Positions 232 to 13,704 of a DNA stretch of 22,039 nt are shown here, one piece after another (within the stretch, counting starts at the first letter, position 1; every line of letters starts with the position of its first letter). Source of the DNA: a virus. The stretch spans positions 1-22,039 of IMG/VR virus record IMGVR_UViG_3300032116_001451. The stretch is one strand, 5' to 3'. The position numbers and the translations under genes were made by a program. The notes under the pieces were generated by a model, which saw nothing but the letters and a program-made list of their open reading frames with translations, had not been told where the DNA came from and did no database searches.

Positions 232-306
232 GCGCGTGTCGTATAGTGGCTATTATGATGGATTGCCAATTCATAGACGAGGGTTCGATTCCCTCCACGC
301 GTACCA
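232..306 (+). tRNA. tRNA-Gly (GCC)
   Basis: Acceptor GCGCGTG pairs with CACGCGT, followed by A73 and an encoded CCA. Anticodon stem ATGGA/TTCAT holds loop TTGCCAA with GCC at 265-267. The T-arm GAGGG-TTCGATT-CCCTC is canonical. The D-stem is weak (three pairs). Confidence 0.88.
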
Positions 307-310
307 CTTT

Positions 311-318
311 AATAAATA
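311..318 (+). promoter_or_regulatory. Putative T4-type late promoter box
   Basis: AATAAATA lies 5 nt before the ATG at 324. It resembles the T4 late box TATAAATA and recurs before eight other genes in this window. Initiation from it would give an almost leaderless mRNA. Confidence 0.5.
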
Positions 319-323
319 GTAAC

Positions 324-539
324 ATGGAACACAAACCTAACTCTATTTTCGACGCAGCAAGCAAAGTTCTTTTTGAACAGAATACACCGCCTCCTCGTAT
401 CACAAAGGAAATTCATTACAAGACTAAGAATGGTAATGAACGAGTATCTGAAGTCGGCGAGAAAAGCGAAGCTGAAGAAATCAAAACCATCAAAGCTCTA
501 GGCGGGACGATTCTCAAAGTCTTGACCGTCAAGCATTGA
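324..539 (+). CDS. Small putative head-packaged protein, HKP leader family
   Basis: This 71-aa protein of unknown function starts MEHKPNSIFDAASKVLFE, a leader shared with the genes at 2500 and 3501. The leader ends in LFE (residues 16-18), matching the (L/I)xE rule of the T4 prohead protease gp21. Cleavage would leave a basic protein of about 53 aa with a likely beta-beta-alpha-beta pattern. The ATG at 324 is preferred over one at 246, which lies inside tRNA-Gly, because the shared leader begins here and a late-type box is 5 nt upstream. Packaging is inferred from the leader alone. Confidence 0.75.
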   Translation: MEHKPNSIFDAASKVLFEQNTPPPRITKEIHYKTKNGNERVSEVGEKSEAEEIKTIKALGGTILKVLTVKH

Positions 540-545
540 TTCAAC

Positions 546-633
546 TGGGGTGAAGTCTAGCCTGGTTTGACAGCTGCCTTTGAAGCAGTAGAACGCAAGT
601 TCTTTGTGGGTTCGAATCCCACCGCCCCCGCCA
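546..633 (+). tRNA. tRNA-Gln (TTG) with long variable arm
   Basis: The 5' end TGGGGTG, G73 and weak 1-72 position (T1/C72) are Gln-like, and the anticodon loop CTTTGAA gives TTG. The variable region is not the usual 4-5 nt but a hairpin GAAC-GCAA-GTTC, as in class II tRNAs. T-arm GTGGG-TTCGAAT-CCCAC is canonical and CCA is encoded. Confidence 0.82.
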
Positions 634-641
634 ATTTTAAC

Positions 642-715
642 TGCCCGTTAGCATAATGGTAATGCATCTGACTCTGAATCAGAACATGAAGGTTCGATTC
701 CTTCACGGGCCACCA
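642..715 (+). tRNA. tRNA-Gln (CTG)
   Basis: D-arm GCAT/ATGC, anticodon stem TCTGA/TCAGA with loop CTCTGAA (CTG), and T-arm GAAGG-TTCGATT-CCTTC are all canonical. The acceptor pairs at positions 2-7, but 1-72 is T/C. The 3' end reads CCACCA. The linker to the previous tRNA is 8 nt. Confidence 0.88.
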
Positions 716-719
716 CTTT

Positions 720-823
720 AGCATCGTTTGACAGTTCCGGACCTGGTGAGAACGATGCTGCTACTGGGCAGCGGCATGTCGCGATCCGCCGAGCCTTCTG
801 TGCAAACCAGACAGTAGCAACCA
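720..823 (+). ncRNA. Candidate structured, tRNA-like RNA B1
   Basis: Two abutting helices: a perfect 9-bp stem AGCATCGTT/AACGATGCT (720-728 with 751-759), directly followed by a perfect 7-bp stem GCTACTG/CAGTAGC (760-766 with 812-818). The second encloses GCGG/CCGC (771-774 with 786-789) and a hairpin TCTG-TGCAAAC-CAGA whose 7-nt loop resembles a T-loop. The 3' side continues AACCA and then a T-rich linker, as after the tRNAs. It may be a reduced tRNA-like RNA; this is inference. Confidence 0.45.
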
Positions 824-825
824 AT

Positions 826-1011
826 TTCGATTAGAGCCCTGAAAAGGTACCGAAGTTTGTAAGGTAGTCATGGAAAGGCGCTAGGCGGACCAAAGAAGAA
901 AGTTGGGAGACCTTAATCGTGTGGAAAGCGAACGTACCTAGTAGCCCATGCGGAGTCACTGTCTAAACCTCAACACTCCAGTGTAAAGAGCAACGGACTC
1001 CACTAATCGAA
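826..1011 (+). ncRNA. Candidate structured RNA B2
   Basis: A perfect 9-bp terminal stem TTCGATTAG/CTAATCGAA (826-834 with 1003-1011) frames about 170 nt without a gene. Inside are AGGTAC/GTACCT (845-850 with 934-939) nesting TAAGGT/ACCTTA (860-865 with 910-915), and a side arm GGAGTC/GACTCC (952-957 with 996-1001). The nesting is consistent with one compact multi-arm RNA. No known family is recognised. Confidence 0.45.
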
Positions 1012-1019
1012 TTTTTCAT

Positions 1020-1094
1020 AGGCCCATAGTGTAACGGTTAGCACCACGGATTTTGATTCCGTTAGTCTAGGTTCGAATCCTAGTGGGCCTGCCA
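1020..1094 (+). tRNA. tRNA-Gln (TTG), second copy
   Basis: Acceptor AGGCCCA pairs fully with TGGGCCT, followed by G73 and CCA. Anticodon stem ACGGA/TCCGT holds loop TTTTGAT with TTG. T-arm is CTAGG-TTCGAAT-CCTAG. This is the third Gln tRNA in 550 bp and, unlike the first two, has a paired 1-72 position and a normal variable loop. Confidence 0.92.
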
Positions 1095-1101
1095 TAATTT
1101 T

Positions 1102-1276
1102 CAGGTATGCCAATGCGTTAGGGAGATAACATTGCGCGCTTGCAGATAAGAACAACGCAGTTCCTGCAAGTGATAACTCCGACTTTCGTCAGTACACTTT
1201 TGCAATGTGTGTTCGGGCTCACATGGAGGTTCCTTAGGAACTGAAGTATGATGAAGCCGTAAACTGACCATACTTG
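1102..1276 (+). ncRNA. Candidate structured RNA C
   Basis: This gap holds a perfect 7-bp hairpin CTTGCAG/CTGCAAG (1139-1145 with 1164-1170) with a second stem GAAC/GTTC inside, a hairpin GTTCC-TTA-GGAAC (1229-1241), and CAATG/CATTG near the start. CATACTT at 1269 can pair either with CAGGTATG at 1102 or with AAGTATG at 1244, so two mutually exclusive folds are possible. No gene and no known RNA family is recognised. Confidence 0.42.
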
Positions 1277-1287
1277 ATTTTCTTTAT

Positions 1288-1385
1288 CGTCGCGTGTCCG
1301 AGTTTGGTTAAGGAGCTCGTCTTGGAAACGAGTGCGTGCAGCAAGAGGCTGTGGGCCGTGGGTTCGAATCCCACCGCGGCGACCA
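1288..1385 (+). tRNA. tRNA-Pro (TGG) with long variable arm
   Basis: Acceptor CGTCGCG/CGCGGCG has the C1-G72 pair and A73 typical of bacterial tRNA-Pro. Anticodon stem CTCGT/ACGAG holds loop CTTGGAA, giving TGG. The variable region is long, with a hairpin CAGC-AAGAG-GCTG, as in tRNA-Ser. If the loop were read one base later it would be GGA (Ser), so identity rests on stem register plus C1-G72. Confidence 0.78.
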
Positions 1386-1394
1386 TTTTCAAAA

Positions 1395-1463
1395 GGGAAT
1401 GCATTGGTTTCGACGTAAGATTCTTTCTTGCGGACGGCGGGTCGTTGCCGCCCATTTCCACCA
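1395..1463 (+). tRNA. tRNA-Arg (TCT) with reduced D-arm
   Basis: Acceptor GGGAATG/CATTTCC, A73 and CCA are clear. Anticodon stem GTAAG/CTTGC holds loop ATTCTTT with TCT. T-stem GGCGG/CCGCC is perfect, but its loop is GTCGTTG. Only 11 nt separate position 9 from the anticodon stem, so there is no room for a normal D-arm. It may be minimal, or degenerate. Confidence 0.65.
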
Positions 1464-1495
1464 TCTTTTGCATCCGTCTCTGAAATGCATAATCA

Positions 1496-1503
1496 AATAA
1501 ATA
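1496..1503 (+). promoter_or_regulatory. Putative T4-type late promoter box
   Basis: AATAAATA lies 5 nt before the ATG at 1509 of the GIY-YIG endonuclease gene. Confidence 0.45.
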
Positions 1504-1508
1504 AGATT

Positions 1509-1934
1509 ATGCGATACACGATCTATAAGACTACCAATTTACTTAACGGAAAATTCTACATTGGTAAACATCAGACAAAGAGACCGATGGATTCTTATCT
1601 TGGTTCTGGTTTAGCTTTAAAGAAAGCTATTTCAAAATACGGGCGAAGAAATTTCAAAAAGGAGATTCTATTTGATTTCGATAACGAATCAGAAATGAAT
1701 CAAAAAGAAAAAGAACTCATAACAGAAGAATTCATTTCACGTTCTGATACTTACAATAAAGGAATTGGCGGAGAAGGCGGTCCACATTTCAAAGGTAAGA
1801 AGCACTCCGATGCAGTCAAAAGTAGAATTACAAAACATCTGAGAAAAGGTGGAGTAAAAGGTTCAATTCCGTGGAACAAAGGATTAAGATTTAAAAGCGC
1901 TTGTAGCTCAGTGGAAGTAGCGGGCCTCTCATAA
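1509..1934 (+). CDS. GIY-YIG homing endonuclease (Seg-like)
   Basis: A 141-aa free-standing homing endonuclease. The N-terminal GIY-YIG nuclease core is recognisable: TIY at residues 4-6, FYIGKHQT near 17-24, DSYLGSG near 29-35 and a conserved Glu in KEKELI. A NUMOD3-type DNA-binding segment (GKKHSDAVKS) follows, ending in IPWNKG. Such enzymes cut a genome lacking the insertion and spread by repair. The frame continues past the domain into the downstream tRNA and stops in its anticodon loop, so the last 13 residues or so are encoded by tRNA sequence. Position between tRNA-Arg and tRNA-Met suggests that a tRNA gene was the insertion target. Confidence 0.88.
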   Translation: MRYTIYKTTNLLNGKFYIGKHQTKRPMDSYLGSGLALKKAISKYGRRNFKKEILFDFDNESEMNQKEKELITEEFISRSDTYNKGIGGEGGPHFKGKKHSDAVKSRITKHLRKGGVKGSIPWNKGLRFKSACSSVEVAGLS

Positions 1935-1972
1935 AGGCTAGGTCGTTGGTTCGATTCCAACCGGGCGCACCA
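1897..1972 (+). tRNA. tRNA-Met or tRNA-Ile2 (CAT)
   Basis: Acceptor GCGCTTG pairs with CGGGCGC (two wobbles), followed by A73 and CCA. Anticodon stem GGCCT/AGGCT holds loop CTCATAA with CAT at 930-932 of this kilobase. T-arm GTTGG-TTCGATT-CCAAC is canonical. The sequence cannot separate elongator Met from lysidine-modified Ile. Its 5' half overlaps the endonuclease frame. Confidence 0.88.
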
Positions 1973-1974
1973 AT

Positions 1975-2092
1975 TTTTGTTTAGTGTAATTGGTAGCACA
2001 CTCTGATAGGGTCGTATGAGGTTCAATTCCTCTTAAGTATGGTACTCGTAATTCCGCGCAGAGCAGATTGGTTCGAATCCAAAGCAAAAACA
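1975..2092 (+). pseudogene. Chimeric or broken tRNA-Ile-like (GAT) element
   Basis: A D-arm GTGT/GCAC, a weak anticodon arm with loop CTGATAG (GAT) and a T-arm GAGG-TTCAATT-CCTC occur in order at 1984-2032, but no CCA follows. A second T-arm, TTGG-TTCGAAT-CCAA, lies at 2068-2082. The 5' strand TTTTGTT (1975-1981) pairs with AGCAAAA (2083-2089) after that second arm, which then ends in ACA plus a T-rich linker. This looks like two tRNAs merged by recombination, or a tRNA with an insertion. Confidence 0.4.
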
Positions 2093-2109
2093 TTTTCATA
2101 CAGAACGAG

Positions 2110-2302
2110 CTAAGTTACTGTCTACGTTCAATGCATCGGGGTAGTGCCCTTGTCCACCATGAAGTTGGTGATGCTACTCGTACACTGCGGGTTTCCTTCC
2201 TACAGCCGAAAGGTGGAAGGATGTATGAAATAGGAACCGTGAAACTTAGGTTAACTACTTTGGCGAGTAGTTTGGAGAAGCCACTCCTTGCGGTTCCATC
2301 CA
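2110..2302 (+). ncRNA. Candidate structured RNA D
   Basis: The 3' part is a clean three-way junction: perfect 7-bp stem GGAACCG/CGGTTCC (2233-2239 with 2291-2297) enclosing hairpins AACTACT/AGTAGTT (2253-2272) and GGAG/CTCC (2274-2287), then ATCCA and a T-rich linker. Upstream are TCCTTCC/GGAAGGA (2194-2221) capped by a GCC-GAAA-GGT tetraloop stem, and GCATC/GATGC (2133-2174). CTAAGTT at 2110 complements AACTTAG at 2243, which would make a pseudoknot. Confidence 0.48.
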
Positions 2303-2313
2303 CTTTCAATAAC

Positions 2314-2398
2314 GCGTCTGTGACCGAATGGTTAGGTAGCCGACTTTTAATCGGAGAGCGAAAGCTCAATGTGGGTTCGATTCCCACCGGGCGTACCA
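2314..2398 (+). tRNA. tRNA-Lys (TTT) with long variable arm
   Basis: Acceptor GCGTCTG/CGGGCGT (three wobbles), A73 and CCA are present. The anticodon loop CTTTTAA gives TTT on a four-pair stem CCGA/TCGG. The variable region carries a hairpin GAGC-GAAA-GCTC. T-arm GTGGG-TTCGATT-CCCAC is canonical and matches that of the first tRNA-Gln except for one loop base. Confidence 0.8.
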
Positions 2399-2405
2399 AT
2401 TTCTA

Positions 2406-2480
2406 GGGCTGTTCGTTCAACGGATAGGATACATGGTTTCGACCCATGAGATGTAGGTTCGATTCCTACACGGCTCGCCA
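2406..2480 (+). tRNA. tRNA-Arg (TCG)
   Basis: Acceptor GGGCTGT/ACGGCTC, G73 and CCA. Anticodon stem CATGG/CCATG holds loop TTTCGAC with TCG. T-arm GTAGG-TTCGATT-CCTAC is canonical. Confidence 0.92.
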
Positions 2481-2482
2481 GT

Positions 2483-2514
2483 TTGATAAATACATCAGTA
2501 TGCAACACAAGCCA
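2483..2514 (+). repeat. Direct repeat, copy 1 (copy 2 at 3484-3515)
   Basis: The late-type box, its spacer and the first codons (TTGATAAATACATCAGTATG and on through CAACACAA) recur at 3484-3515 with one difference at the 3' end. This marks duplication of a promoter plus leader-peptide cassette ahead of two otherwise unrelated coding regions. Confidence 0.85.
2485..2492 (+). promoter_or_regulatory. Putative T4-type late promoter box
   Basis: GATAAATA lies 7 nt before the ATG at 2500. No Shine-Dalgarno sequence separates them. Confidence 0.5.
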
Positions 2515-2964
2515 GGATCAATCTTTGAAGCCGCAAGTTCGGTTTTGTTCGAGAATCCAACTGAGCGTCTCGCAAGAATGCGCCTTGAGATTCAGAAAGG
2601 TAAGGAATACGCGTCGCAATATGAAGCTCTAATCAGTTCGCTTGCTAAGGTTATTCCCTGGACAAAGAAGCCAACCAAGAGTAAATCATCAGCTCTCATT
2701 GAATACACCGGTGAGATTGGAGTCAATCAACTTTCATTTTCATGGCATGCTATAGATAACCGATACAGCTATGGATATGCATTCATGGGAGCTTTAATTT
2801 CCGAAGCAGGTAAGTATGGCAAGATCCATGAATTCGGACCCAAGCTTGATATCATTGGAATGGATGTTACTAACGATGATCATATCAAGAAGAATCTTGA
2901 AGCTTTCAAGAAGACGATCGAACTTGCGAAGAAAATCGATCCAAAGAAACTTTACATAAAATAA
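2500..2964 (+). CDS. Putative head-packaged protein, HKP leader family
   Basis: A 154-aa protein starting MQHKPGSIFEAASSVLFE, nearly identical to the leaders at 324 and 3501. LFE at residues 16-18 fits the gp21-type cleavage rule. The rest is unrecognised: a charged helical stretch (about 20-60), a central segment with several aromatic residues (FSWHAIDNRYSYGYAF, about 85-100), and a Lys-rich helical C-terminus. The ATG at 2500 is chosen because the leader starts there and because upstream sequence is tRNA-Arg. The stop codon immediately precedes tRNA-Val. The role inside the virion or the infected cell is unknown. Confidence 0.8.
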   Translation: MQHKPGSIFEAASSVLFENPTERLARMRLEIQKGKEYASQYEALISSLAKVIPWTKKPTKSKSSALIEYTGEIGVNQLSFSWHAIDNRYSYGYAFMGALISEAGKYGKIHEFGPKLDIIGMDVTNDDHIKKNLEAFKKTIELAKKIDPKKLYIK

Positions 2965-3039
2965 GGCAGCGTAGCTCAAAGGAAGAGCATCTGTATGACA
3001 TGCAGAAGGTTGAGATATCGTGATTCTCCGCTGTCACCA
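2965..3039 (+). tRNA. tRNA-Val (GAC)
   Basis: Acceptor GGCAGCG/CGCTGTC, A73, CCA, D-arm GCTC/GAGC and anticodon stem TCTGT/GCAGA with loop ATGACAT (GAC). The T-arm is unusual: GAGA/TCTC with central ATCGTGA, so the conserved G53-C61 pair and T54/A58 are lost. It starts one base after the stop codon of the previous gene. Confidence 0.82.
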
Positions 3040-3040
3040 A

Positions 3041-3149
3041 TTTATTGACGCGAGTCAATAAACAACATACGGTGGTTCTCCGCCGTACCTCCCCTGGTAA
3101 ACGAACGGGCATGGCAGTCGCCTTCTACGCGATGTCGTCATGCCCGTTC
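3041..3149 (+). ncRNA. Candidate structured RNA E (three hairpins)
   Basis: Three strong consecutive hairpins fill this gap: a perfect 9-bp stem TTTATTGAC/GTCAATAAA with a GCGA tetraloop (3041-3062); TACGG/CCGTA (3068-3087) with an inner GG-TTCT-CC; and a perfect 11-bp stem GAACGGGCATG/CATGCCCGTTC (3103-3113 with 3139-3149) with an inner TCGC/GCGA. No T-run follows the last hairpin, so it is not a typical terminator. Confidence 0.5.
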
Positions 3150-3162
3150 AATCATTTTCAAT

Positions 3163-3237
3163 TCCTGTGTAGCTCAGCGGCAGAGCGGGTGACTGTTAAT
3201 CACTAGGTCCGTGGTTCGATCCCACGTGCAGGAGCCA
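3163..3237 (+). tRNA. tRNA-Asn (GTT)
   Basis: Acceptor TCCTGTG/TGCAGGA, G73 and CCA. D-arm GCTC/GAGC. Anticodon stem GGTGA/TCACT holds loop CTGTTAA with GTT. T-arm GTGG-TTCGATC-CCAC is canonical. Confidence 0.93.
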
Positions 3238-3247
3238 CTTTACATGA

Positions 3248-3396
3248 TTAAGCGCGACTAGGGACCGCGTATAGCATGACTACTTGATGTTTCATCGGGT
3301 CGAATGTAATCAAGTTCCCGGAGAGGAGTGGTTCTAAACACTCGTCGATCGATGCTAAGAATTTAGCTTAAAGCCTCCGTAAAAAATAATCGAACC
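3248..3396 (+). ncRNA. Candidate structured RNA F
   Basis: Perfect helices: ACTTGAT/ATCAAGT (3282-3288 with 3309-3315), GAGTG/CACTC (3326-3330 with 3339-3343), CGGAG/CTCCG (3319-3323 with 3375-3379), and CGCG/CGCG (3253-3269). TTAAGC at 3248 complements GCTTAA at 3366, but GCTAA/TTAGC (3354-3367) competes for the same bases. The end CGAACCA-CTTTC resembles a tRNA 3' end plus linker. Confidence 0.4.
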
Positions 3397-3405
3397 ACTT
3401 TCATT

Positions 3406-3479
3406 GCCGCATTAGTCTATTGGTAAGACGCCGTCCTCGTAGCTCGGAGAAAGCAGTTCGATTCTGCTATGCGGCTCCA
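3406..3479 (+). tRNA. tRNA-Thr (CGT)
   Basis: Acceptor GCCGCAT/ATGCGGC is perfect, with T73 and CCA. D-arm GTCT/AGAC and T-arm AGCAG-TTCGATT-CTGCT are clean. The 17-nt anticodon arm gives loop CTCGTAG with CGT, but the two pairs next to the loop are mismatched (T/T and C/C), so the isotype is less sure than the gene. Confidence 0.8.
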
Positions 3480-3485
3480 TCTTTT

Positions 3486-3493
3486 GATAAATA
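3486..3493 (+). promoter_or_regulatory. Putative T4-type late promoter box
   Basis: GATAAATA lies 7 nt before the ATG at 3501, within the 32-nt direct repeat shared with 2483-2514. Confidence 0.5.
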
Positions 3494-3500
3494 CATCAGT

Positions 3501-3758
3501 ATGCAACACAAACCAGGTTCAATTTTCGAGGCGGCTTCTCAAACTCTTTTTCATGAAGCTATTGATGATGAAGGCAATACTCTAAAAGTTGGAGACAGTG
3601 TCGAATTCAAATCTGACATTGAGCAAGTTGGAGTTATTACGAAAATTTCAGGTTCTAATTTAACACTTGAACCACCTCCTGGTCAAAAATTTCATGGTTC
3701 ATACATTGGAAATTCTAAATCAACCGTCGTGTATTCAGGACGAGTAACAAAAATCTAA
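3501..3758 (+). CDS. Small putative head-packaged protein with SH3/KOW-like fold
   Basis: An 85-aa protein with leader MQHKPGSIFEAASQTLFHE. Here the cleavage-like site is LFHE (16-19), one residue longer than LFE in its relatives. After it, LKVGDSVEFKSDIEQVGVI and the following strands, with TLEPPPG, read like a small beta-barrel of the KOW/SH3 type. That class often binds nucleic acid or protein, but no specific family is recognised. The start is fixed by the shared leader; upstream sequence is tRNA-Thr. The next gene begins 11 nt after the stop. Confidence 0.75.
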   Translation: MQHKPGSIFEAASQTLFHEAIDDEGNTLKVGDSVEFKSDIEQVGVITKISGSNLTLEPPPGQKFHGSYIGNSKSTVVYSGRVTKI

Positions 3759-3769
3759 CATAAACAATT

Positions 3770-4195
3770 ATGAGACCATTTTCTTCATACAGTTCCGATC
3801 CTCTTTACAAAGCAATCACCAAAGTTTTATCTGAAGGTGTTAAGATTGCTCCTCCAAAAGGATATGGAAAAGACATTCCAAAAAACTTTCAGGTTGCTTT
3901 TCAAAGCATTCTTGACCAAGCAAGCAAGACGCATACAATCACGAATGCAGCTTTCTTTGACTCAGGTTATTACGGTGTGTCATTCAACATTGGTAAAGTC
4001 GAATATGTCGTTGGCTTGTCCGACACACGAATGACAAAAGATGACGGTATTGTCATGGGCAGTATCTTTCTTCAGAAGACAGGTTCATCAAGTCGAATTG
4101 TAAACGTTGTTGCAACTGACAAGTTCGATGTTGAGTTTCCAAGCCAATCCGATATCTCCAAAATCGTAAAAGCAATTTCAAAGCTTCCAAAATAA
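3770..4195 (+). CDS. Putative head-packaged protein, DPL leader family
   Basis: A 141-aa protein whose N-terminus has SSDPLYKAITKVLSE, similar to leaders at 6805 and 7463 (DPLxxAxxxVLxE). LSE at residues 20-22 is a good gp21-type site. The rest, from VKIAPPKGYGKDIPKN onward, is predicted alpha plus several strands and ends with a basic SDISKIVKAISKLPK helix; no family is recognised. A degenerate late-type box (CATAAACA, 3759-3766) precedes it, so it may also be read through from the gene at 3501. Unlike most neighbours it is followed directly by a tRNA, 7 nt downstream. Confidence 0.75.
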   Translation: MRPFSSYSSDPLYKAITKVLSEGVKIAPPKGYGKDIPKNFQVAFQSILDQASKTHTITNAAFFDSGYYGVSFNIGKVEYVVGLSDTRMTKDDGIVMGSIFLQKTGSSSRIVNVVATDKFDVEFPSQSDISKIVKAISKLPK

Positions 4196-4202
4196 ACTTT
4201 AC

Positions 4203-4288
4203 GCGCGCGTGGCGGAATGGCATACGCGGCAGTTTGAGAGACTGTTCCCTTAAGTGGGTTGTGGGTTCGAGTCCCACCGTGCGCACCA
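4203..4288 (+). tRNA. tRNA-Leu (GAG)
   Basis: Acceptor GCGCGCG/CGTGCGC, A73 and CCA. Anticodon stem GCAGT/ACTGT holds loop TTGAGAG with GAG. The long variable arm CCC-TTAAGT-GGG is normal for Leu. T-arm GTGGG-TTCGAGT-CCCAC. Confidence 0.93.
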
Positions 4289-4295
4289 TCTTAAC

Positions 4296-4469
4296 ATGAT
4301 TTCAAGATTCTTCATTGCTCTGATAGCATTAGTTTCTGTTAACTGTGCAGCTCTAGACGGGTATGAGCGCAGATACGGAATTGCTTATTATGACGAAGAA
4401 GGTAATAAGCTTGAAGCAAGTGTTGCTCTCGTGCCAGTAAAACCAAAGGTCATTAGATCATCTAAGTAA
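4296..4469 (+). CDS. Small secreted protein
   Basis: A 57-aa protein starting MISRFFIALIALVSVNCAALDG, a typical signal peptide: a basic residue, about 13 hydrophobic residues, then a Cys or Ala cleavage region. SVNC is only a poor lipobox, so signal peptidase I cleavage after CAA is about as likely. The mature part (about 35 aa) is polar, with GIAYYDEEGNKLE. No family is recognised. Start ATG 4296 lies 8 nt after tRNA-Leu. The stop overlaps the next start (TAATG), so the two are translationally coupled. Confidence 0.65.
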   Translation: MISRFFIALIALVSVNCAALDGYERRYGIAYYDEEGNKLEASVALVPVKPKVIRSSK

Positions 4470-5656
4470 TGTCTCTTAGCTTTACAAAGTTTAGAATGTT
4501 GTCCGAACGAAAACGTTTGGAGCCAACTCTATATGATGAGCTTAAGCCATACTCTACTGATCCTGCATACTTCGTTACATTCACTGCAATCGAGAAGGTA
4601 GGTATCAATCCATCAAATGCATTCTCGACTCCGATTGGAATCTATGCATATTCTCTGAAGGATCTTTGGAAGCATTGGATCGCAGGAAACTTTTTCTTTG
4701 GTCGAGATCGTCCGTATGTCAATCTGCTAAAGGTTAACACAACTAAGATTCTGCATCTTAAGAATTACAGCTTTAACACTAAGGACCTTTCAATTCTTCA
4801 GGCAAGATACGATTCAGTTAAGAACGTTACTGACCTTTCATTTGAAGCCTTTCTAAAAGATACTCGTGCCGCAACTGCAAAGGAAACAAACCTCTACAGC
4901 AATACATCGGATGGAGCAGTTCTGTGGAACTTAACATTTCGTATTGCGCGAAAGCTTGCATCGGATAACTCAAAAGCTTTCACTGTTCGATGGAATACGC
5001 TGTTCCGTGAGTTAGGATATGATGCTATTTACGATACATCAAGTATCATTCATTTGCTTCAGTCCTCACAAGCAGTCTTCTTTACTCCATCTTCATACAA
5101 GCTCATTGGTCGATTCAAGAACAAGAATCTGATCGTAAATGATTCTGATTATTGGGGAACGAAGGAACAACCGTTTTGGTATCCAGGCGAGAATCCTGCA
5201 GTTGACATTGCGATTACTACAGTCATTGATTCTCAAAAGAAGGTTCTCCTTGTGAAACGAAAGCAAGATGGTTCATGGGCATTGCCTGGTTCCTTTATTC
5301 ATACTGACTCTGAAAAGGGCGAGCCATTCAACTGGGGCCGTGAAGCTCCAAAGCAGGCTGCTATTCGAGTCCTGACCGAGAAGACAAAACTTTACTTAGG
5401 CGGGCTTCGATCAATTGGAGAAAAGATTCGCTTTGTCGGTAAGTTTGATTCAAAGACCAAAGACTCGCGCAACAATAAAGAAGCATGGTCTGCATCTTAC
5501 TTCTTTACGATTCATTTTGACGATGCTAGTGAAATAGATCTACAAAAGATCGGTGCACAAGCTGAAGCGTCTGATGCTAAATGGTTCGCACTTAATGAAG
5601 TTCCAAAACTCGCATTTGGACATAACGGTCTAATCAGACAAATTCTCAATAAATAA
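4469..5656 (+). CDS. Putative packaged protein with C-terminal Nudix hydrolase domain
   Basis: A 395-aa protein in three parts. Residues 1-13 (SFTKFRMLSE) form a short leader ending in LSE, a gp21-type site. Residues about 30-215 form an unnamed domain with STPIGIYAY (53-61), GRDRPYVNLL (78-87) and a late YDAIYDTSSIIH and QAVFF; this could be ADP-ribosyltransferase-like, but that is only a guess. Residues about 243-395 form a Nudix domain: strands VDIAITTVID and VLLVKRKQDGSWALPGS, then a box with E292, R300, E304 (AAIRVLTEKTKL). The second Glu of REUxEE is Lys, as in the NrtR/ADP-ribose group, so catalysis is uncertain. Known Nudix enzymes hydrolyse nucleoside diphosphates linked to X. Confidence 0.8.
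   Translation: MSLSFTKFRMLSERKRLEPTLYDELKPYSTDPAYFVTFTAIEKVGINPSNAFSTPIGIYAYSLKDLWKHWIAGNFFFGRDRPYVNLLKVNTTKILHLKNYSFNTKDLSILQARYDSVKNVTDLSFEAFLKDTRAATAKETNLYSNTSDGAVLWNLTFRIARKLASDNSKAFTVRWNTLFRELGYDAIYDTSSIIHLLQSSQAVFFTPSSYKLIGRFKNKNLIVNDSDYWGTKEQPFWYPGENPAVDIAITTVIDSQKKVLLVKRKQDGSWALPGSFIHTDSEKGEPFNWGREAPKQAAIRVLTEKTKLYLGGLRSIGEKIRFVGKFDSKTKDSRNNKEAWSASYFFTIHFDDASEIDLQKIGAQAEASDAKWFALNEVPKLAFGHNGLIRQILNK
5648..5655 (+). promoter_or_regulatory. Putative T4-type late promoter box
   Basis: AATAAATA lies 4 nt before the ATG at 5660 and overlaps the stop codon of the Nudix gene. Confidence 0.42.
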
Positions 5657-5659
5657 GCT

Positions 5660-5977
5660 ATGCCAATAACTAAAGAGAACGGCGAACAATATCGTCTCAA
5701 GTACATCTCTCAGACGATCCTATCTTCAAGGACGGATCGTGAGAAGGTAATTACTATGTTAGCATTGCTCAACGCGAAAGTTATTGGTGATGATAAGATT
5801 GCTAAGGTCACGAATACAAAGAATAGGTTAGCTGCTAACCTAGTGAACCTTGATAAGAAAATCTCCGATAAGATCACTCTTTGGAATAAAGTCTACCTCG
5901 GTCTGTTTAAGAAGACTCCTTCTTCTATTGCTGAGCGTGATGCGCTAATTTCAGAGTTTGCAAATAAGAAATTCTAA
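5660..5977 (+). CDS. Hypothetical helical protein
   Basis: A 105-aa protein, mostly predicted helix, with no Cys and a high Lys/Asn content. No recognisable family, signal peptide or membrane segment. It lacks the (L/I)xE leader of its neighbours, starting MPITKENGEQYRLKYISQ. A late-type box sits just before its start, and it ends 2 nt before tRNA-Thr(GGT), so it is embedded in the tRNA array like the leader-bearing genes. It may be a late protein of the same regulon without head targeting. Confidence 0.7.
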   Translation: MPITKENGEQYRLKYISQTILSSRTDREKVITMLALLNAKVIGDDKIAKVTNTKNRLAANLVNLDKKISDKITLWNKVYLGLFKKTPSSIAERDALISEFANKKF

Positions 5978-5979
5978 TC

Positions 5980-6054
5980 GCCCATATAGTTTAATGGTCA
6001 GAATGCATTCTTGGTAAGAATGAGATCCGAGTTCGATTCTCGGTTTGGGCTCCA
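5980..6054 (+). tRNA. tRNA-Thr (GGT)
   Basis: Acceptor GCCCATA/TTTGGGC (one mismatch), T73 and CCA. Anticodon stem CATTC/GAATG holds loop TTGGTAA with GGT. T-arm CCGAG-TTCGATT-CTCGG. T73 is shared with the CGT isoacceptor at 3406. Confidence 0.92.
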
Positions 6055-6079
6055 GCTTTAGTTGGTTTTGTTTTCGAAT

Positions 6080-6167
6080 GCCGATGTGGCGAAATGGTAA
6101 ACGCGGCAGTTTCAAACGCTGCTATTCTTTATTGAATTTGTGAGTTCGAGTCTCACCATCGGTACCA
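6080..6167 (+). tRNA. tRNA-Leu (CAA)
   Basis: Acceptor GCCGATG/CATCGGT, A73 and CCA. Anticodon stem GCAGT/GCTGC holds loop TTCAAAC with CAA. The long variable arm ATTC-TTTATT-GAAT fits Leu. T-arm GTGAG-TTCGAGT-CTCAC. Confidence 0.93.
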
Positions 6168-6203
6168 ATTTTGATAAACTCTTCAGTTTGGTAAACACAT
6201 TTT

Positions 6204-6211
6204 GATAAATA
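6204..6211 (+). promoter_or_regulatory. Putative T4-type late promoter box
   Basis: GATAAATA lies 5 nt before the ATG at 6217 of the HNH gene. A related string, TTGATAAACTCTTCAGTTTG, occurs at 6172 and may be a decayed copy. Confidence 0.45.
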
Positions 6212-6216
6212 AGTTT

Positions 6217-6666
6217 ATGCAAATTGAAGATGCAATACGAACGAGTGTTACTATGTCAGAGGCAGCACGCAAAATGAATCTGCCTTTCAGCACGTTTAAA
6301 CGTAAAGCTGGAGATTTGTATCAACCAAATCAAGGAGGTAAAGGAACTAGGAAAGAATTTAAGCGTAATGGATATTCTGGAGTTTTGCTAACTAGAGACA
6401 TTCTTAATGGGTTAAGACCACAATACCCAACGAATAATTTAAAGCGTCGGTTAATTAGTGAAGGGATTCTTGAAGAGAAATGCGCAGAATGCGATCATTC
6501 CGGTCTTTGGAATGGATTGCCTTTAGTTCTTCATCTTGATCATATCAATGGGATAAATGATGATCATAGAATAGAAAATTTACAACTGCTATGTCCAAAC
6601 TGCCATAGTCAAACGCCTACATACGCAGGAAAGAATAAAAGAAAGAAACATTCTACGGAGATATGA
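6217..6666 (+). CDS. HNH homing endonuclease
   Basis: A 149-aa HNH nuclease. Residues about 1-30 look like a helix-turn-helix (MSEAARKMNLPFSTFKRKAG). The nuclease core has zinc Cys pairs C89/C92 and C126/C129, and the catalytic segment LHLDHINGINDDHRIENLQLLCPNCHSQ with D108-H109 and H130, plus WNG before it. This is the common phage HNH type with a Cys4 zinc site. It lies between tRNA-Leu and tRNA-Ser, and its last codons and stop overlap the first 10 nt of tRNA-Ser, so it appears to have entered flush against that gene. The ATG at 6217 is preferred because the box is just upstream. Confidence 0.88.
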   Translation: MQIEDAIRTSVTMSEAARKMNLPFSTFKRKAGDLYQPNQGGKGTRKEFKRNGYSGVLLTRDILNGLRPQYPTNNLKRRLISEGILEEKCAECDHSGLWNGLPLVLHLDHINGINDDHRIENLQLLCPNCHSQTPTYAGKNKRKKHSTEI

Positions 6667-6748
6667 CAGAGCCTGGTATTGTGCCTGCCTGGAAAGCAGT
6701 GGCCCACTCAAATGGGTGGCGCAAGTTCAAATCTTGCTATCTCCGCCA
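6657..6748 (+). tRNA. tRNA-Ser (GGA)
   Basis: Acceptor GGAGATA/TATCTCC is perfect, with G73 and CCA. Anticodon stem CCTGC/GCAGT holds loop CTGGAAA with GGA. Long variable arm CCCA-CTCAAA-TGGG. T-arm CAAG-TTCAAAT-CTTG. It is the last tRNA before the terminator. Confidence 0.94.
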
Positions 6749-6754
6749 TTTCAT

Positions 6755-6776
6755 AACCCGCTTCGGCGGGTTTTTT
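6755..6776 (+). terminator. Rho-independent terminator of the tRNA array
   Basis: Perfect stem AACCCGC/GCGGGTT with a TTCG tetraloop followed by a run of T. It lies 7 nt after tRNA-Ser, so the array probably ends here. Confidence 0.93.
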
Positions 6777-6790
6777 GGTCTCTAGAAATT

Positions 6791-6798
6791 GATAAATA
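6791..6798 (+). promoter_or_regulatory. Putative T4-type late promoter box
   Basis: GATAAATA lies 6 nt before the ATG at 6805, right after the array terminator. As nothing else can transcribe the next gene, a promoter is needed here, which supports the promoter reading of this motif. Confidence 0.6.
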
Positions 6799-6804
6799 AC
6801 CGAT

Positions 6805-7449
6805 ATGCTAGCATCTCATGTAACTCGCGACCCATTGATTGCGGCTGTTAATTCAGTCCTCAATGAATCACATTCTCTTACTGAAGCTGAAATGACAGCT
6901 CTTGATCTTCGCAAGAAGTATGGTGGTGCTTATGTTTCTTCAATGGATCTGGACGGTGAATATGAAGGAGAAGTTCAGTTCGTAAATAAGATCAAGAACT
7001 TCATGCGCAAGCATAAGCTTAGTCCTAAAGAGACTGCAGTTTTTCACGAAGATGGATTTAAGAAGTATGAGTCATTTCCTGCAATGGTCAAGCTTCTTAA
7101 AAAGAAGAACATTCCATTCGAAGATTTTACTGACAGAGTCGGTTCAGGTGTAATCGTATTCTCGCTTAAACCAGTTGTCAATGAATCAGTTTCTGATGAG
7201 GTTCAACTAGATGAGGATAAAGCACAAGACACTCTTCAGCGTCTAAACAAATTCGCGAAGGAGCTAAATGCTATTGATGCAGAAATGGATTCTCTTGATG
7301 CTCAAATAAAGAAGCTAGAGAAAGCATACGAAAAGCTTAATGCTAAGGCTGGTGTTCTACAAGATAATCGCGACGATGCTCACATCAAGCTTAAGGATTC
7401 TGGAATCTCTAAGAATCTAATAGACAAAGCTTACAAAGGAAAACTCTAA
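6805..7449 (+). CDS. Putative head-packaged protein with coiled coil, DPL leader family
   Basis: A 214-aa protein starting MLASHVTRDPLIAAVNSVLNE. The DPLxxAxxxVLxE leader matches those at 3770 and 7463, and LNE (19-21) is a gp21-type site, with LTE (25-27) just after it. An alpha/beta domain covers about 30-122. An acidic linker with another such site (LDE, 135-137) leads to a long coiled coil (about 140-195) of alternating Leu/Ala and charged residues. No family is recognised. Two extra sites suggest that it may be processed into two parts. The next gene's box overlaps its stop. Confidence 0.78.
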   Translation: MLASHVTRDPLIAAVNSVLNESHSLTEAEMTALDLRKKYGGAYVSSMDLDGEYEGEVQFVNKIKNFMRKHKLSPKETAVFHEDGFKKYESFPAMVKLLKKKNIPFEDFTDRVGSGVIVFSLKPVVNESVSDEVQLDEDKAQDTLQRLNKFAKELNAIDAEMDSLDAQIKKLEKAYEKLNAKAGVLQDNRDDAHIKLKDSGISKNLIDKAYKGKL

Positions 7450-7455
7450 TAAATA
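7448..7455 (+). promoter_or_regulatory. Putative T4-type late promoter box
   Basis: AATAAATA lies 7 nt before the ATG at 7463 and begins on the stop codon of the preceding gene. Confidence 0.48.
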
Positions 7456-7462
7456 ACTACTC

Positions 7463-8296
7463 ATGAACCAACCATTCTCTAAATCCCACAAAGACCCGTT
7501 AACTGCTGCGGCTGCTTCAGTTCTATTCACTGAAGATATTTCGGCTATCAAAGACAAAGTCTCAAAGCTAAAGGCAGGCGACAAGACAAACTTTGGTGTT
7601 GTCAAATCGATCAGCGATACTTCAATTGAGTTCAAAGCTCGAGACACTGGAGTAACTAAGATTTCATTCAATCAGCGCAAGATGGGTTCAAAGGATTTCG
7701 TCCTTGACAAGTTGATGAAGCTTAACGAAGAAGAATCTATTGATGAAAGTTTTAGTCCTCGTCTAAAGGGTCTTGCAAAGGATGTAGTTGGCCATGGAAA
7801 GAATCTTGTTGATGCTCTTAATAAGGATGACACAACAACTGCAAAAGATGCTCTTAACGAGGTTATGATCGCTGCAGAAGAGATTCAGTCAGTTCTAAAG
7901 AAGATCAAGAATGAATCTGTTGAAGAACTTGATGAAGAAGAAAAATCCTTTCGTGTAAACGCAAGATTCAATAACAAGAATGCTAAAGGTCTCTGGCAAA
8001 AAATCAGTTGGCCAACCAAAGCTAATTCTAAGGAAGACGCTGAAGCAAAGTTCCGCAAGCGCATGGGTAAAGATCTAATCAAAGATCTTGAAGTTCTTGA
8101 AGAAGAAACTGAAATTGAAGAAGCTGCACCTGCCGACGTTATTGCTCTTGCACGAGAAGTTGGTTATCCGCCAACAGAAGCAGAGCGTCAGTATGCAAGT
8201 TGGACGAAGCGCGGACTTTCAAAGGATAACATCAAAGCTCTCATTAAGAAGTACGCCGAAGAAAAGAAGAATTCTACTTCAGTTTCCAAAAAATGA
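7463..8296 (+). CDS. Putative head-packaged polyprotein, DPL leader family
   Basis: A 277-aa protein with leader KDPLTAAAASVLFTE (10-24). The body splits into blocks joined by acidic linkers: an SH3/KOW-like block (about 32-82), a helical block (about 97-150), an alpha/beta block beginning SFRVNARF (162-210), and a C-terminal three-helix block with REVGYPPTEAERQYASW (225-270). Every linker carries (L/I)xE: LNE 87-89, IDE 93-95, LDE 156-158, LEE 212-214, IEE 218-220. This layout suggests that the prohead protease cuts it into several internal peptides, as T4 cuts its scaffold and internal proteins. No block has a known function. Confidence 0.78.
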   Translation: MNQPFSKSHKDPLTAAAASVLFTEDISAIKDKVSKLKAGDKTNFGVVKSISDTSIEFKARDTGVTKISFNQRKMGSKDFVLDKLMKLNEEESIDESFSPRLKGLAKDVVGHGKNLVDALNKDDTTTAKDALNEVMIAAEEIQSVLKKIKNESVEELDEEEKSFRVNARFNNKNAKGLWQKISWPTKANSKEDAEAKFRKRMGKDLIKDLEVLEEETEIEEAAPADVIALAREVGYPPTEAERQYASWTKRGLSKDNIKALIKKYAEEKKNSTSVSKK

Positions 8297-8517
8297 ATGA
8301 GGCAATTGATCCCAAGAATCTTAAGAAGATCATTCACAACGATGCGACAGTAACTCTTGGGAATGCTTCAATTGAACAACTTAACGCTTCAAAGCGTTGG
8401 TATCTTGACCGTGTTGGTCATGTGAAAGTAGGCGAGCGAAAAAGCTTGCAAGGAGTTCAAAAAACCTACATGAAGAACCTTGGTCTAATCACTAAGGAAC
8501 TTGCATCTAGGAAATAA
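8293..8517 (+). CDS. Hypothetical protein
   Basis: A 74-aa basic protein, MNEAIDPKNLKKIIHND onward, that starts on ATGA overlapping the stop of the polyprotein gene, so it is coupled to it and presumably late. The sequence looks helical, with GNASIEQLNASKRWYLDRVGH in the middle and a Lys-rich C-terminus. No leader, signal peptide or family is recognised. A promoter for the next gene starts 3 nt after its stop. Confidence 0.65.
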   Translation: MNEAIDPKNLKKIIHNDATVTLGNASIEQLNASKRWYLDRVGHVKVGERKSLQGVQKTYMKNLGLITKELASRK

Positions 8518-8520
8518 GTA

Positions 8521-8549
8521 TTTACATTTGTCCTTGGATAGTGTAAAAT
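8521..8549 (+). promoter_or_regulatory. Sigma70-type promoter, ATAGTG class
   Basis: TTTACA (8521-8526), 17-nt spacer ending ATAGTG, then TAAAAT (8544-8549). Spacer end and boxes match the promoters at 9051 and 11887. The leader to the ATG at 8637 is about 80 nt and holds a hairpin AGAGTA-TTACCG-TACTCT (8556-8573). Confidence 0.8.
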
Positions 8550-8636
8550 ATCATTAGAGTATTACCGTACTCTAAACCCAACGTATGATGCAGAATTCGT
8601 CTGTTGATTACATAAAACACAAACCTACAAATAATC

Positions 8637-9041
8637 ATGAAGAAATTCTTGCTTATTTGCATGGCTCTTTTATGCGTATCGTCGCTGAGTCCTGCAAAAG
8701 AAATAGACAGCACAGTCTACAAAGCCCGCGTAACGTATTACTCTGCGGATGGTAAATGGGGAAATCGAGTGGCATGCCAAAAAGCAAAGTACGCTAAAGA
8801 AGGCGTAAGTGTGGCTGCTCACCCAATGTTCAAGTTTGGAACAGTGCTTGAGATTCCTGCTCTAAAAGGAATCATCGGAGATGGTAAATTTGTGGTGCAA
8901 GACCGTGGTCCTGCTGTCACAAAGAAAGTGGCATCACGAGGGAAGACACTCGTATTTGATGTCTATGTTGCATCTCATTCCAAGATTCACAAAATGAAAA
9001 CTGCTGTTCCTGACTATCTGGAAGTCATTGTGAAAGAATGA
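8637..9041 (+). CDS. Secreted 3D-domain (RlpA-like barrel) protein
   Basis: A 134-aa protein with a clear signal peptide (KKFLLICMALLCVSSLSPA, about 1-20) and a mature 3D domain, a small double-psi beta barrel. Visible features are VTYYSADGKWG (32-42), GVSVAAHPMFKFGTVLEIP (56-74), VVQDRGPAV (86-94, D89) and GKTLVFDVYVASH (102-114, D108). The family includes the C-terminal domain of MltA and proteins that act on peptidoglycan. A phage copy exported to the periplasm could modify the cell wall during infection or lysis. It is transcribed from its own sigma70-type promoter rather than a late-type box. Confidence 0.82.
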   Translation: MKKFLLICMALLCVSSLSPAKEIDSTVYKARVTYYSADGKWGNRVACQKAKYAKEGVSVAAHPMFKFGTVLEIPALKGIIGDGKFVVQDRGPAVTKKVASRGKTLVFDVYVASHSKIHKMKTAVPDYLEVIVKE

Positions 9042-9050
9042 AAAATTCTA

Positions 9051-9079
9051 TTTACATTTGGCTGAAAATAGTGTACAAT
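9051..9079 (+). promoter_or_regulatory. Sigma70-type promoter, ATAGTG class
   Basis: TTTACA (9051-9056), 17-nt spacer ending ATAGTG, TACAAT (9074-9079). It begins 9 nt after the 3D-domain gene and drives the gene at 9243. Confidence 0.8.
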
Positions 9080-9242
9080 AATCTCATGCGGAACGGATAC
9101 CGCAAACAATCTGGCAAAGAAAGTTCCTAAATAAATTCACCAATACGAAAAACCACTTTCCGCCAAAACTTTGGGCAAAGGATGTTCCTAAACTCTTTTA
9201 ACTGGAAAAAATCACATCCCGCCCTCTTCTTTTCTACACATT
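9080..9242 (+). other. Long 5' leader with direct repeats
   Basis: About 160 nt lie between the promoter and the next ATG, unusual in this compact genome. The leader holds a hairpin GCGG/CCGC (9088-9103) and two copies of GGCAAAG-N3-GTTCCTAAA (9113-9131 and 9174-9192), 61 nt apart. No gene is seen. It may bind a regulator or fold into a control element; no known riboswitch is recognised. Confidence 0.45.
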
Positions 9243-11036
9243 ATGAAAGTCGCAACCCTTGAATTGTTTAATGCAGTGCCAGCTAAGACTGGTGGAGATT
9301 ACATCGTTCTTCCAGAATATGGTGTGATCATTGAGCCAAGCGCTTCTTATGCAAAGAATACGATCCTTTCGTTTCTTCGTGCAAAGAAGTTGTCAGGTAC
9401 TGAACTGAATGCGACCTTTCATAAGTCTTGGGCTAAGATCGAGAACTCTTCTCGTGCAGAATTGCTAGTTCATCAGATCTTGCACTACTTGACCACTTAT
9501 GGAACTGGTCATACATCTTCTTTCGTTTATGTTCCGAATGAGGAACTGAACGTTCCTGCGAATCTTACTTTCACTGTGATTCGTGGATGGACTCGTGAGC
9601 AGTTTGTTGAGGCTACTCTGAACATGCTCAAGTCTGGTGTTGCTCTTAAGTCAGACACAATTGATTCTGTTATTGGAATCCTAAATGACTTTGACTACAA
9701 GTTCACTGGAGCTGAAGTCGTCAAGAATAAGGAAGCACTGATGTTCCTATGTCAGCGTTTCAATGCGCTTCCTAAGGACCCAGTTGAATTCGTTCGCTAT
9801 CTTATCTTCCTTGCGACAGGTACGACTCTGCTTATCAAGAGCAAGTCTCTGTATCGTTCGATTGAATCAACGATCAATAAGAAGGAAGTTACTAAGGCTT
9901 TACTTGAAGCTGATACCGAAGTTCTTGCTTCGGTCTTTAACCGATTCAAGCCAATCTTCCTGTCTCTGAAGAAGTCTCTGACAAACGTTGACACAAGAGC
10001 AAAGATCAATGCGATCTCAAAGGCAAGCAAGACTGCCCACGTTCCAATGTCTTACAACATTCTGAACAACATCGGTTCTTGCACTGTTGCTGAACTTGTT
10101 GCTCAGCGTGATAATCTGTTGAACGCAAACTTCTTCCAGCTTGCGCGTTGCATTCAGTTCCTGAAGCAGAACATGTCAGCTACTGACAAGGTCTATCAGA
10201 TTCGCAACGGTAAGACTTTCGCGAAGAGCGGTAAGACTCTGAATTCATTCCAAGCAACAGAAAAGATTCACCTGTTGATTCATATCCTTGCTGAGAAGTA
10301 TTCGCTGAAGGGTCTTAAGGTTTACATCCCTGATGATGTTTTCTATGCGCTGCCAACTTCGGAAAAGCTGTATGTAGGAAATGTTCCGTTTGGTTCTAAG
10401 TTCGTTTCAGACAATGTTGCGCTTGGCGTATTCTGGAGAAACGAAGGTGGAGCTCGAGACATCGACTTGTCAGCAATCAGTGCGGACTCAAAGGTCGGTT
10501 GGAATTCATATTACAATGATGGAGAAGTTCTCTATTCAGGTGATATGACTAATGCTAGCCCATGTGCTACTGAATATCTTTACAGCAAGAAGAGTCTGCA
10601 GTCAGACTATCTGGTCACTGCAAATATCTTCAGTGGTAATCCAACTGGATCAAAGTTCAACATCATTGTCGGTAAAGGTGGAAACATCAATAAGGACTAT
10701 ATGATGGACCCAAATGCAGTCTGGGTAACCTCTGCAACTGAATCAATCAAGCGTGAAGGTCTTGTTGGTCTAATCACTCGAGATGGTGACAAGAATGCTG
10801 CTATCGTCTTCCACCTTGGCTTTGGCCGATCACAGGTTTCTTATGGCGGCGGTAAGGCTGACCTCATGCGTTCTGCTCTCGTGCAGCGCTGGAAGAACTG
10901 CTTCTATCTTAACGAACTGCTGCCATACCTTGGTGCAGAAATGGTTAAGGATGCAGCAGAGGCTGACCTTGATCTGTCTCCTAACAAGTTGACTCGCGAT
11001 AGCTTTACTATGCTGTTTTCTGAAAAGGATAAATAG
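9243..11036 (+). CDS. Large protein with C-terminal TerD-like domain
   Basis: A 597-aa protein. Residues about 1-310 are mainly helical, with HVPMSYNILNNI at 266-277. A TerD-like beta-sandwich seems to lie at about 385-490: GVFWRNEGGARDIDLSAIS (395-413), with D406/D408 where TerD proteins bind calcium, then GDMTNASP (433-440). A C-terminal helical segment follows. TerD proteins are tied to tellurite resistance and stress or phage defence in bacteria; the phage role is unknown. Codon use is rich in AAG, CTT and CTG and looks strongly expressed. Its own promoter and long leader suggest separate regulation. The TerD match is by eye only. Confidence 0.6.
   Translation: MKVATLELFNAVPAKTGGDYIVLPEYGVIIEPSASYAKNTILSFLRAKKLSGTELNATFHKSWAKIENSSRAELLVHQILHYLTTYGTGHTSSFVYVPNEELNVPANLTFTVIRGWTREQFVEATLNMLKSGVALKSDTIDSVIGILNDFDYKFTGAEVVKNKEALMFLCQRFNALPKDPVEFVRYLIFLATGTTLLIKSKSLYRSIESTINKKEVTKALLEADTEVLASVFNRFKPIFLSLKKSLTNVDTRAKINAISKASKTAHVPMSYNILNNIGSCTVAELVAQRDNLLNANFFQLARCIQFLKQNMSATDKVYQIRNGKTFAKSGKTLNSFQATEKIHLLIHILAEKYSLKGLKVYIPDDVFYALPTSEKLYVGNVPFGSKFVSDNVALGVFWRNEGGARDIDLSAISADSKVGWNSYYNDGEVLYSGDMTNASPCATEYLYSKKSLQSDYLVTANIFSGNPTGSKFNIIVGKGGNINKDYMMDPNAVWVTSATESIKREGLVGLITRDGDKNAAIVFHLGFGRSQVSYGGGKADLMRSALVQRWKNCFYLNELLPYLGAEMVKDAAEADLDLSPNKLTRDSFTMLFSEKDK
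11028..11035 (+). promoter_or_regulatory. Putative T4-type late promoter box
   Basis: GATAAATA lies 6 nt before the ATG at 11042 and overlaps the end of the preceding gene. Confidence 0.48.
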
Positions 11037-11041
11037 CAATT

Positions 11042-11368
11042 ATGGCTAAGCTATTCTCCTTCAAACAGTTCTGTGCAATATCAGAGGAGAAGGAAGATCC
11101 TCGTCTAAAGGCAGCTGGTGTAAGTGATTACAACAAGCCAAAAGCTACGCCTAATCATCCAGAAAAGTCGCACATAGTTGTGGCAAAAGAAGGTGATAAG
11201 GTTAAGACGATTCGCTTTGGAGAACAAGGTGTAAAGGGTTCCCCTCCAAAGAAAGGTGAAAGCGAAGAATACGCTGCTCGACGAAAGTCTTTTAAAGCGC
11301 GTCACGCTAAGAACATCAAGAAGGGGAAGATGTCAGCGGCTTACTGGGCCAATAAAACTAAATGGTGA
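11042..11368 (+). CDS. Small basic putative packaged protein (DUF6321-like)
   Basis: A 108-aa very basic protein starting MAKLFSFKQFCAISE. The leader FSFKQFCAISE ends in ISE (13-15) and resembles T4 internal-protein leaders (a hydrophobic KxFxxF pattern). The rest, with EGDKVKTIRFGEQGVKG, SEEYAARRKSFKARHAKNI and a C-terminal AAYWANKTKW, looks like the small DUF6321-type proteins of T4-like marine phages, whose function is unknown. A basic packaged protein could bind DNA. It is overlapped at its stop by the HNH gene at 11362. Confidence 0.75.
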   Translation: MAKLFSFKQFCAISEEKEDPRLKAAGVSDYNKPKATPNHPEKSHIVVAKEGDKVKTIRFGEQGVKGSPPKKGESEEYAARRKSFKARHAKNIKKGKMSAAYWANKTKW

Positions 11369-13671: not shown

Positions 13672-13703
13672 ATGCATTTTTTGTGAAAATTCTGCATTTT
13701 TTT
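13672..13703 (+). terminator. Hairpin-T7 terminator fused to promoter
   Basis: ATGCA/TGCAT with an inner TTTT/AAAA pairing (TTC bulge), then seven T. It ends the helicase unit. The next base after T7 starts ATTTACA, so terminator and promoter abut. Confidence 0.65.
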
Positions 13704-13704
13704 A

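Follow-up and report, generated by a model that had tools for sequence, protein, structure and literature searches.

In phage T4, gp21 cleaves after L/I-x-E, and the T4 CTS provides a precedent for leaders of the kind described here (PMC9026906). T4 late promoters carry TATAAATA at positions -13 to -6 (PMC1524935). For the phages phiKZ and SPN3US, large amounts of protein are reported to be processed by the prohead protease, packaged, and ejected with the DNA (PMC10052503; PMC7411985). Polyvalent proteins are multi-domain phage proteins which are predicted to be packaged and injected, and for which processing has been proposed (Iyer et al., 2017; PMC5512222).

Here, eight leader genes are described in the window, which is a whole IMG/VR contig of 22,039 bp. 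The leaders are very probably capsid-targeting propeptides of late, head-packaged cargo. Support for this reading comes from a shared leader under selection, its LxE end, the late box preceding the genes and one leader that behaves as an add-on, in addition to protease, scaffold and late sigma genes in relatives. A prior description of this leader was not found in the literature searched, the coverage of which is incomplete.

Leader Genes and the tRNA Array

The contig 3300032092_002958 (G005) is 100% identical to the first 4,154 bases of the window and extends the window phage 14 kb upstream, giving ~36 kb of known sequence and ~40 tRNA genes in total. The downstream part of the tRNA array (232–6748, + strand) includes 15 tRNAs in the window, with leader genes interspersed, and continues upstream in G005, where a ninth leader gene of this phage is located (G005:6985; leader MRNIFESAKKVLFE/S, the slash marking the predicted cut).

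Other genes of the window include that of a 597-aa protein of unknown family (9243–11036), relatives of which are found in or beside the tRNA arrays of S-CRM01, S-CBWM1 and two unrelated metagenomic phages (29–41% identity over all hits); this protein perhaps has a function associated with tRNA arrays. G001 and G002, which were retrieved via the 597-aa protein, were rejected as relatives on the basis of different gene content without leader genes. Three near-identical promoter-like elements (TTTTTTATTTACA...TGTGGTAGAATTTGGTGTACCC) at 13690–13740, 18165–18210 and 21585–21635 are probably early promoters, which would make the right half of the window a region of early genes. Proteins resembling a superfamily 2 helicase (11922–13649) and a CCA-adding tRNA nucleotidyltransferase (15057–16580), as judged by sequence alone, are also encoded.

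The original prediction had described eight proteins with leaders of 13–24 residues ending in (L/I)xE or LFxE, and all eight ORFs are indeed present, on the + strand, with leaders as described. The 71-aa protein at 324–539 bears the leader MEHKPNSIFDAASKVLFE/Q (324–377; VLFE at 18), as do its orthologues in L037 and L058. The 154-aa protein at 2500–2964 (MQHKPGSIFEAASSVLFE/N, 2500–2553; VLFE at 18) and the 85-aa protein at 3501–3758 (MQHKPGSIFEAASQTLFHE/A, 3501–3557; LFHE at 19) have closely related promoters and leaders but dissimilar bodies. The 141-aa protein at 3770–4195 (MRPFSSYSSDPLYKAITKVLSE/G, 3770–3835; VLSE at 22) has leader-bearing orthologues in L029, L052 and G010; an AlphaFold (AF2) model of this family predicts a separate leader helix at low confidence, with an ordered domain starting near residue 27, and neither PDB nor BFVD yielded a match to the model below E 0.01 in a fold search. 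In the 214-aa protein at 6805–7449 (MLASHVTRDPLIAAVNSVLNE/S, 6805–6867; VLNE at 21), further sites are LTE/A at residue 27 and LDE/D at residue 137, ahead of a coiled coil; a match of this protein to Pfam phiKZ_IP (E 2.4e-5, below the cut-off) was put aside as coiled-coil similarity. A candidate polyprotein of 277 aa is encoded at 7463–8296 (MNQPFSKSHKDPLTAAAASVLFTE/D, 7463–7534; LFTE at 24) and a 108-aa protein at 11042–11368 (MAKLFSFKQFCAISE/E, 11042–11086; AISE at 15). The weakest case of the eight is the 395-aa protein at 4469–5656, which has a C-terminal NUDIX domain (residues 247–389): for its candidate leader (MSLSFTKFRMLSE/R, 4469–4507; MLSE at 13), there is no leader-bearing relative, no late box of its own and no usable structure model. 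The single-sequence model, made to check this protein as an Alt-like ADP-ribosyltransferase, had a pLDDT of 32. Related-locus searches with the 7463 and 4469 proteins found nothing.

Two leader types had also been proposed. Leaders of the HKPxSIFEA type (type 1) and the DPLxxA type (type 2) do exist, but intermediates, e.g., MTEKYFNSKPGSIFNAAYDVLLGN and MKQTYFNNKQDSIFQAAYNVLTEQ, join them into one family, and the 4469 and 11042 leaders constitute a third type, SFxxFxxxSE, which resembles the T4-CTS-like MKSFKEYIAEA of relatives. Between the main leader (types 1 and 2) and the T4 CTS, clear sequence identity was not seen, and the peptides are too short for a formal test.

In IMG/VR relatives, the leader of the window is present on ~30 further distinct proteins (~35 distinct proteins in total). 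A scan for the HKPxSIF leader led to a second population (G003/G004), and a scan for the late box plus DPLxxA leader yielded 36 stretches spread over many contigs, among them the 173,760-bp G008; several contigs had two or three hits each. Leader-like starts gathered from the fetched DNA without requiring a late box amounted to 42 non-redundant sequences, a few of which are alternative starts of a gene already counted. For 36 non-redundant leaders, taken from the window and its relatives, a cut site was sought no more than 12 aa away from the leader anchor. Strict LxE was found in 31/36, compared with a mean of 10.1 in anchored shuffles (sd 2.6; highest count in 2000 shuffles, 21), and either LxE or LxxE was found in all 36 (anchored-shuffle mean 15.1), with LxxE in place of LxE in five. 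Control rates were 23–32% at other anchors in leader proteins and 22–30% at other N-termini of these phages.

Of 17 codons compared between the leaders of 2500 and 3501, 10 differ synonymously and 2 non-synonymously, and the bodies of the 324, 2500 and 3501 proteins are mutually unrelated. Because the leaders differ mostly synonymously while the bodies are unrelated, this comparison indicates that the leader peptide is under purifying selection.

The body of the 11042 protein belongs to the phrog_7595 family, which is widespread among SIO1-type and other podoviruses, and the match begins at residue 16. Podovirus orthologues are without the leader and begin MAKKDPRLERAGVSGYNKPK or MAPKKDARLTKNGLSGYNKPK, whereas the window protein reads MAKLFSFKQFCAISE/EKEDPRLKAAGVSDYNKPK; their start coincides with the predicted ISE/E cut. 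As the podovirus members start at the cut position, the predicted cut would restore an ordinary N-terminus, which supports, independently of the other evidence, the view that the 11042 leader is a removable add-on. Likewise, relatives encode proteins with T4-CTS-like leaders in which a DUF6267 or cytidylyltransferase domain starts after the leader. Separation of the leader from the folded domain is thus seen both in the comparison of 11042 with podovirus orthologues and in the predicted 3770 structure. The 11042 protein also shares a domain with the 'minor head protein and DNA pilot' PHROG (E 8e-7), a similarity to be taken as suggestive.

Late-Promoter Boxes and Head Genes of Relatives

The sequence ATAAATA occurs nine times in the window, compared with 2.7 expected, always on the + strand and each time 4–7 nt ahead of an ATG. 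A feature not mentioned in the original prediction is that these late boxes lie directly before six of the eight leader genes, i.e., 324 (box at 312–318, 5 nt before the ATG), 2500 (2486–2492, 7 nt), 3501 (3487–3493, 7 nt), 6805 (6792–6798, 6 nt), 7463 (7449–7455, 7 nt) and 11042 (11029–11035, 6 nt), all on the + strand. The remaining three boxes precede two homing-endonuclease-like genes (~1509/1510 and 6217) and the gene at 5660. As the homing endonucleases have the box without a leader, the late box alone is no marker of virion proteins. Among 21 leader genes whose search pattern did not demand a box, 17 have a T4 late box 4–9 nt before the ATG, compared with a background of 10–25% of ORFs; the four boxless exceptions are of a shorter leader class and, in G008, the second gene of a leader-gene cluster. 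In G008, gp20 and tail genes are preceded by a box in identical geometry. The counts in the window and among the 21 genes, together with the presence of gp55 in G008, predict late expression of the leader genes.

In the window and genome-wide in G008, boxes are located 4–9 nt before the ATG (peak 5–7), and a Shine-Dalgarno-like sequence is present in 0/45 G008 genes. Given the -13 to -6 geometry of the T4 box, transcripts would begin at the start codon or one to two bases earlier. The short distance between box and ATG and the lack of a Shine-Dalgarno-like sequence imply that late mRNAs would be leaderless in this phage group. The box-to-ATG geometry of this group is absent from the S-CRM01 genome.

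As a check of the original prediction, it had been suggested to look in the rest of the genome for a gp21-like protease and for additional genes with such leaders, and the outcome was positive in relatives: besides the further leader genes, Peptidase_S77 (gp21 family) is encoded in G008 (E 2e-44), G007 (E 3e-44) and G019 (E 3e-31). Peptidase_S77/gp21 (PF03420) was not found in the window, G003, G004 or G005, which are all fragments. The G008 gp21 matches the T4 gp21 structure 5jbl and is 55% identical to gp21 of the cyanophage S-CRM01. G008 also encodes the scaffold gp22 and the late sigma gp55, and its gp23, when aligned to T4 gp23, has SAYLAE/GNS at the cleavage region, with LAE/G in place of the T4 LTE/A. 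The nearest cultured phages by gp23 are Pelagibacter phage HTVC008M and Methylophilales phage Melnitz (~57%). When two cultured phages, S-CRM01 and Melnitz-2, were scanned for types 1 and 2, only T4-CTS-like leaders were found, except for one type-1-like N-terminus in Melnitz-2, MSKYLETKKGSIESAVLEAMS.

Two further features of the relatives can be noted. The cargo regions of G008 and G019 are nearly identical, yet their gp21 proteins are just 41% identical; the cargo locus thus appears mobile among phages whose head genes have diverged. In G004, the replicative helicase gene (675–2444 and 3130–3576) is seemingly interrupted by an intein-like sequence (GCVHPDTKIVV...ISSHNTGVGKS).

Candidate Polyproteins and Cargo Domains

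Long leader proteins (G008:15376, 818 aa; L058:3944, 703 aa; G019:126855, 687 aa; window 7463, 277 aa) are made of modules that recur alone or in varied order. Module Y (GDxTNFG...NQRKxGS) is preceded by LNE/G, LEE/G or LDE/G in five of six contexts, after the leader or after another module, and is usually followed by ELTE/A, ELQE/A, EIAE/A or SIDE/S and then by a module that differs per genome. In the window 7463 protein, module Y is followed by the linkers SIDE/S (95), ELDE/E (158) and EIEE/A (220). The motif [LIMV]xE[ASG] was counted 45 times compared with 22.5 in shuffles (sd 4.5), a twofold excess whose significance is inflated by near-duplicate proteins, and is 2.8 times denser than in other G008 proteins. 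In a test of module boundaries using BLAST edges, 46% were within 6 aa of a site compared with 28%, a moderate difference in a set that includes near-duplicate proteins.

The chances are about even that the larger leader proteins are head-packaged polyproteins, each with one leader, shuffled small modules and acidic LxE linkers, from which the prohead protease would cut out separate cargos; the 7463 protein would be one such precursor. If so, one leader and one promoter would load a whole set of injected proteins, adding a new way to load a virion. A small ORF at 8293–8517, which overlaps the end of 7463 and starts MNEAIDPKNL, looks as if a module with a remnant LNE/A junction had turned into a separate gene.

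Recognised cargo domains are NUDIX (window 4469), the ferritin-like DUF5856 (G010:74390) and a weak ParB-like match (L055), and the bodies of T4-CTS-like leader genes include cytidylyltransferase and DUF6267. Among the recognised domains of leader proteins, no anti-defence protein was identified, and no enzymatic or peptidase domain was recognised in G008:15376, L058:3944 or window 7463.

Proposed Mechanism and Comparison with Known Systems

In the proposed mechanism, the T4-type late promoter directly before the ATG would cause each leader gene to be expressed late, and the amphipathic leader would dock its protein to the prohead core while the head is being assembled. A gp21-family protease in the head would then cut after (L/I)x(x)E, freeing the mature cargo, which would remain there with the DNA and probably be ejected into the next host. 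Promoter and leader would together act as a cassette converting unrelated proteins into head cargo, and the cassettes are located in the variable tRNA array. Packaging, cleavage, injection and cargo function are what we infer from these gene features, as is a possible role of the cargo in takeover or anti-defence. If true, the sequence tag would read out the injected-protein repertoire of an uncultured T4-like phage group, a repertoire that would exceed the few internal proteins of T4 in both size and variety, and capsid targeting would be a general cassette system, providing many candidate takeover or anti-defence proteins without known function.

The leader proteins might instead be prohead core components, like gp22, gp67 and gp68, in which case targeting would be followed by digestion and not by delivery. 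The large leader proteins resemble G008 gp22 in having many LxE motifs in acidic stretches, and T4 core proteins are cleaved into pieces (PMC9026906). However, in the small leader proteins a single site directly behind the leader precedes a compact body, the body of 11042 belongs to a family present in podoviruses, and the domains of further bodies (NUDIX, cytidylyltransferase, ferritin-like, ParB-like) are not those of a scaffold; a core function is thus considered unlikely. Less probable still is that the leader directs proteins to the tail or baseplate, the membrane, the replication compartment or an assembly chaperone, LxE being a by-product of an acidic N-terminus. Although the leader looks amphipathic, as many docking peptides do, LxE is far more frequent than in anchored shuffles and other N-termini of the same phages, it also borders module Y within the candidate polyproteins, and the 11042 cut position would restore an ordinary start.

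The idea that the common 5' sequence acts at the DNA or RNA level (as a promoter, translation start or recombination hot spot), with the peptide incidental, takes account of the joint duplication of promoter and first codons in 2500 and 3501 (18/20 identical upstream), and of the location of these two elements after tRNA genes and adjoining homing endonucleases. It is hardly credible given that the leader codons have diverged mostly synonymously and that the late box is found without the leader too. Head targeting of cargo by protease-type leaders, as originally proposed, is supported by gp21 in relatives, the ~30 additional leader genes and the comparison of 11042 with podoviruses.

As in the T4 CTS of IPI-III and the gp21-processed Alt propeptide, a short N-terminal peptide ending in (L/I)xE is carried by unrelated, predicted late head proteins; a gp21 relative, gp22 and gp55 are encoded in relatives, and the window 4469 and 11042 proteins have a T4-CTS-like leader. 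Unlike the T4 CTS, the main leader is of a different, longer sequence family, and leader genes are far more numerous per genome, are located in the tRNA array and have a late box 4–9 nt before the ATG. Also, many of the cargo proteins are multi-module, unlike T4 internal proteins. The phiKZ and SPN3US systems, with their protease-processed ejection proteins, resemble the one proposed here, but they belong to jumbo phages and use another protease. In polyvalent proteins, processing is ascribed to built-in metallopeptidase domains, whereas the linkers found here fit cleavage by the prohead protease and a peptidase domain was not found; polyvalent proteins are defined by several disparate enzymatic domains, often with a metallopeptidase, whereas the sole domain recognised among G008:15376, L058:3944, window 7463 and G010:74390 is the ferritin-like DUF5856 of the last. 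Overall, every defining feature of the T4 CTS/internal-protein system that could be tested was found in this phage group, except that gp21 is located in relatives rather than within the ~36 kb of the window genome and that the main leader has no clear homology to the T4 CTS; assignment to this type of system is well supported.
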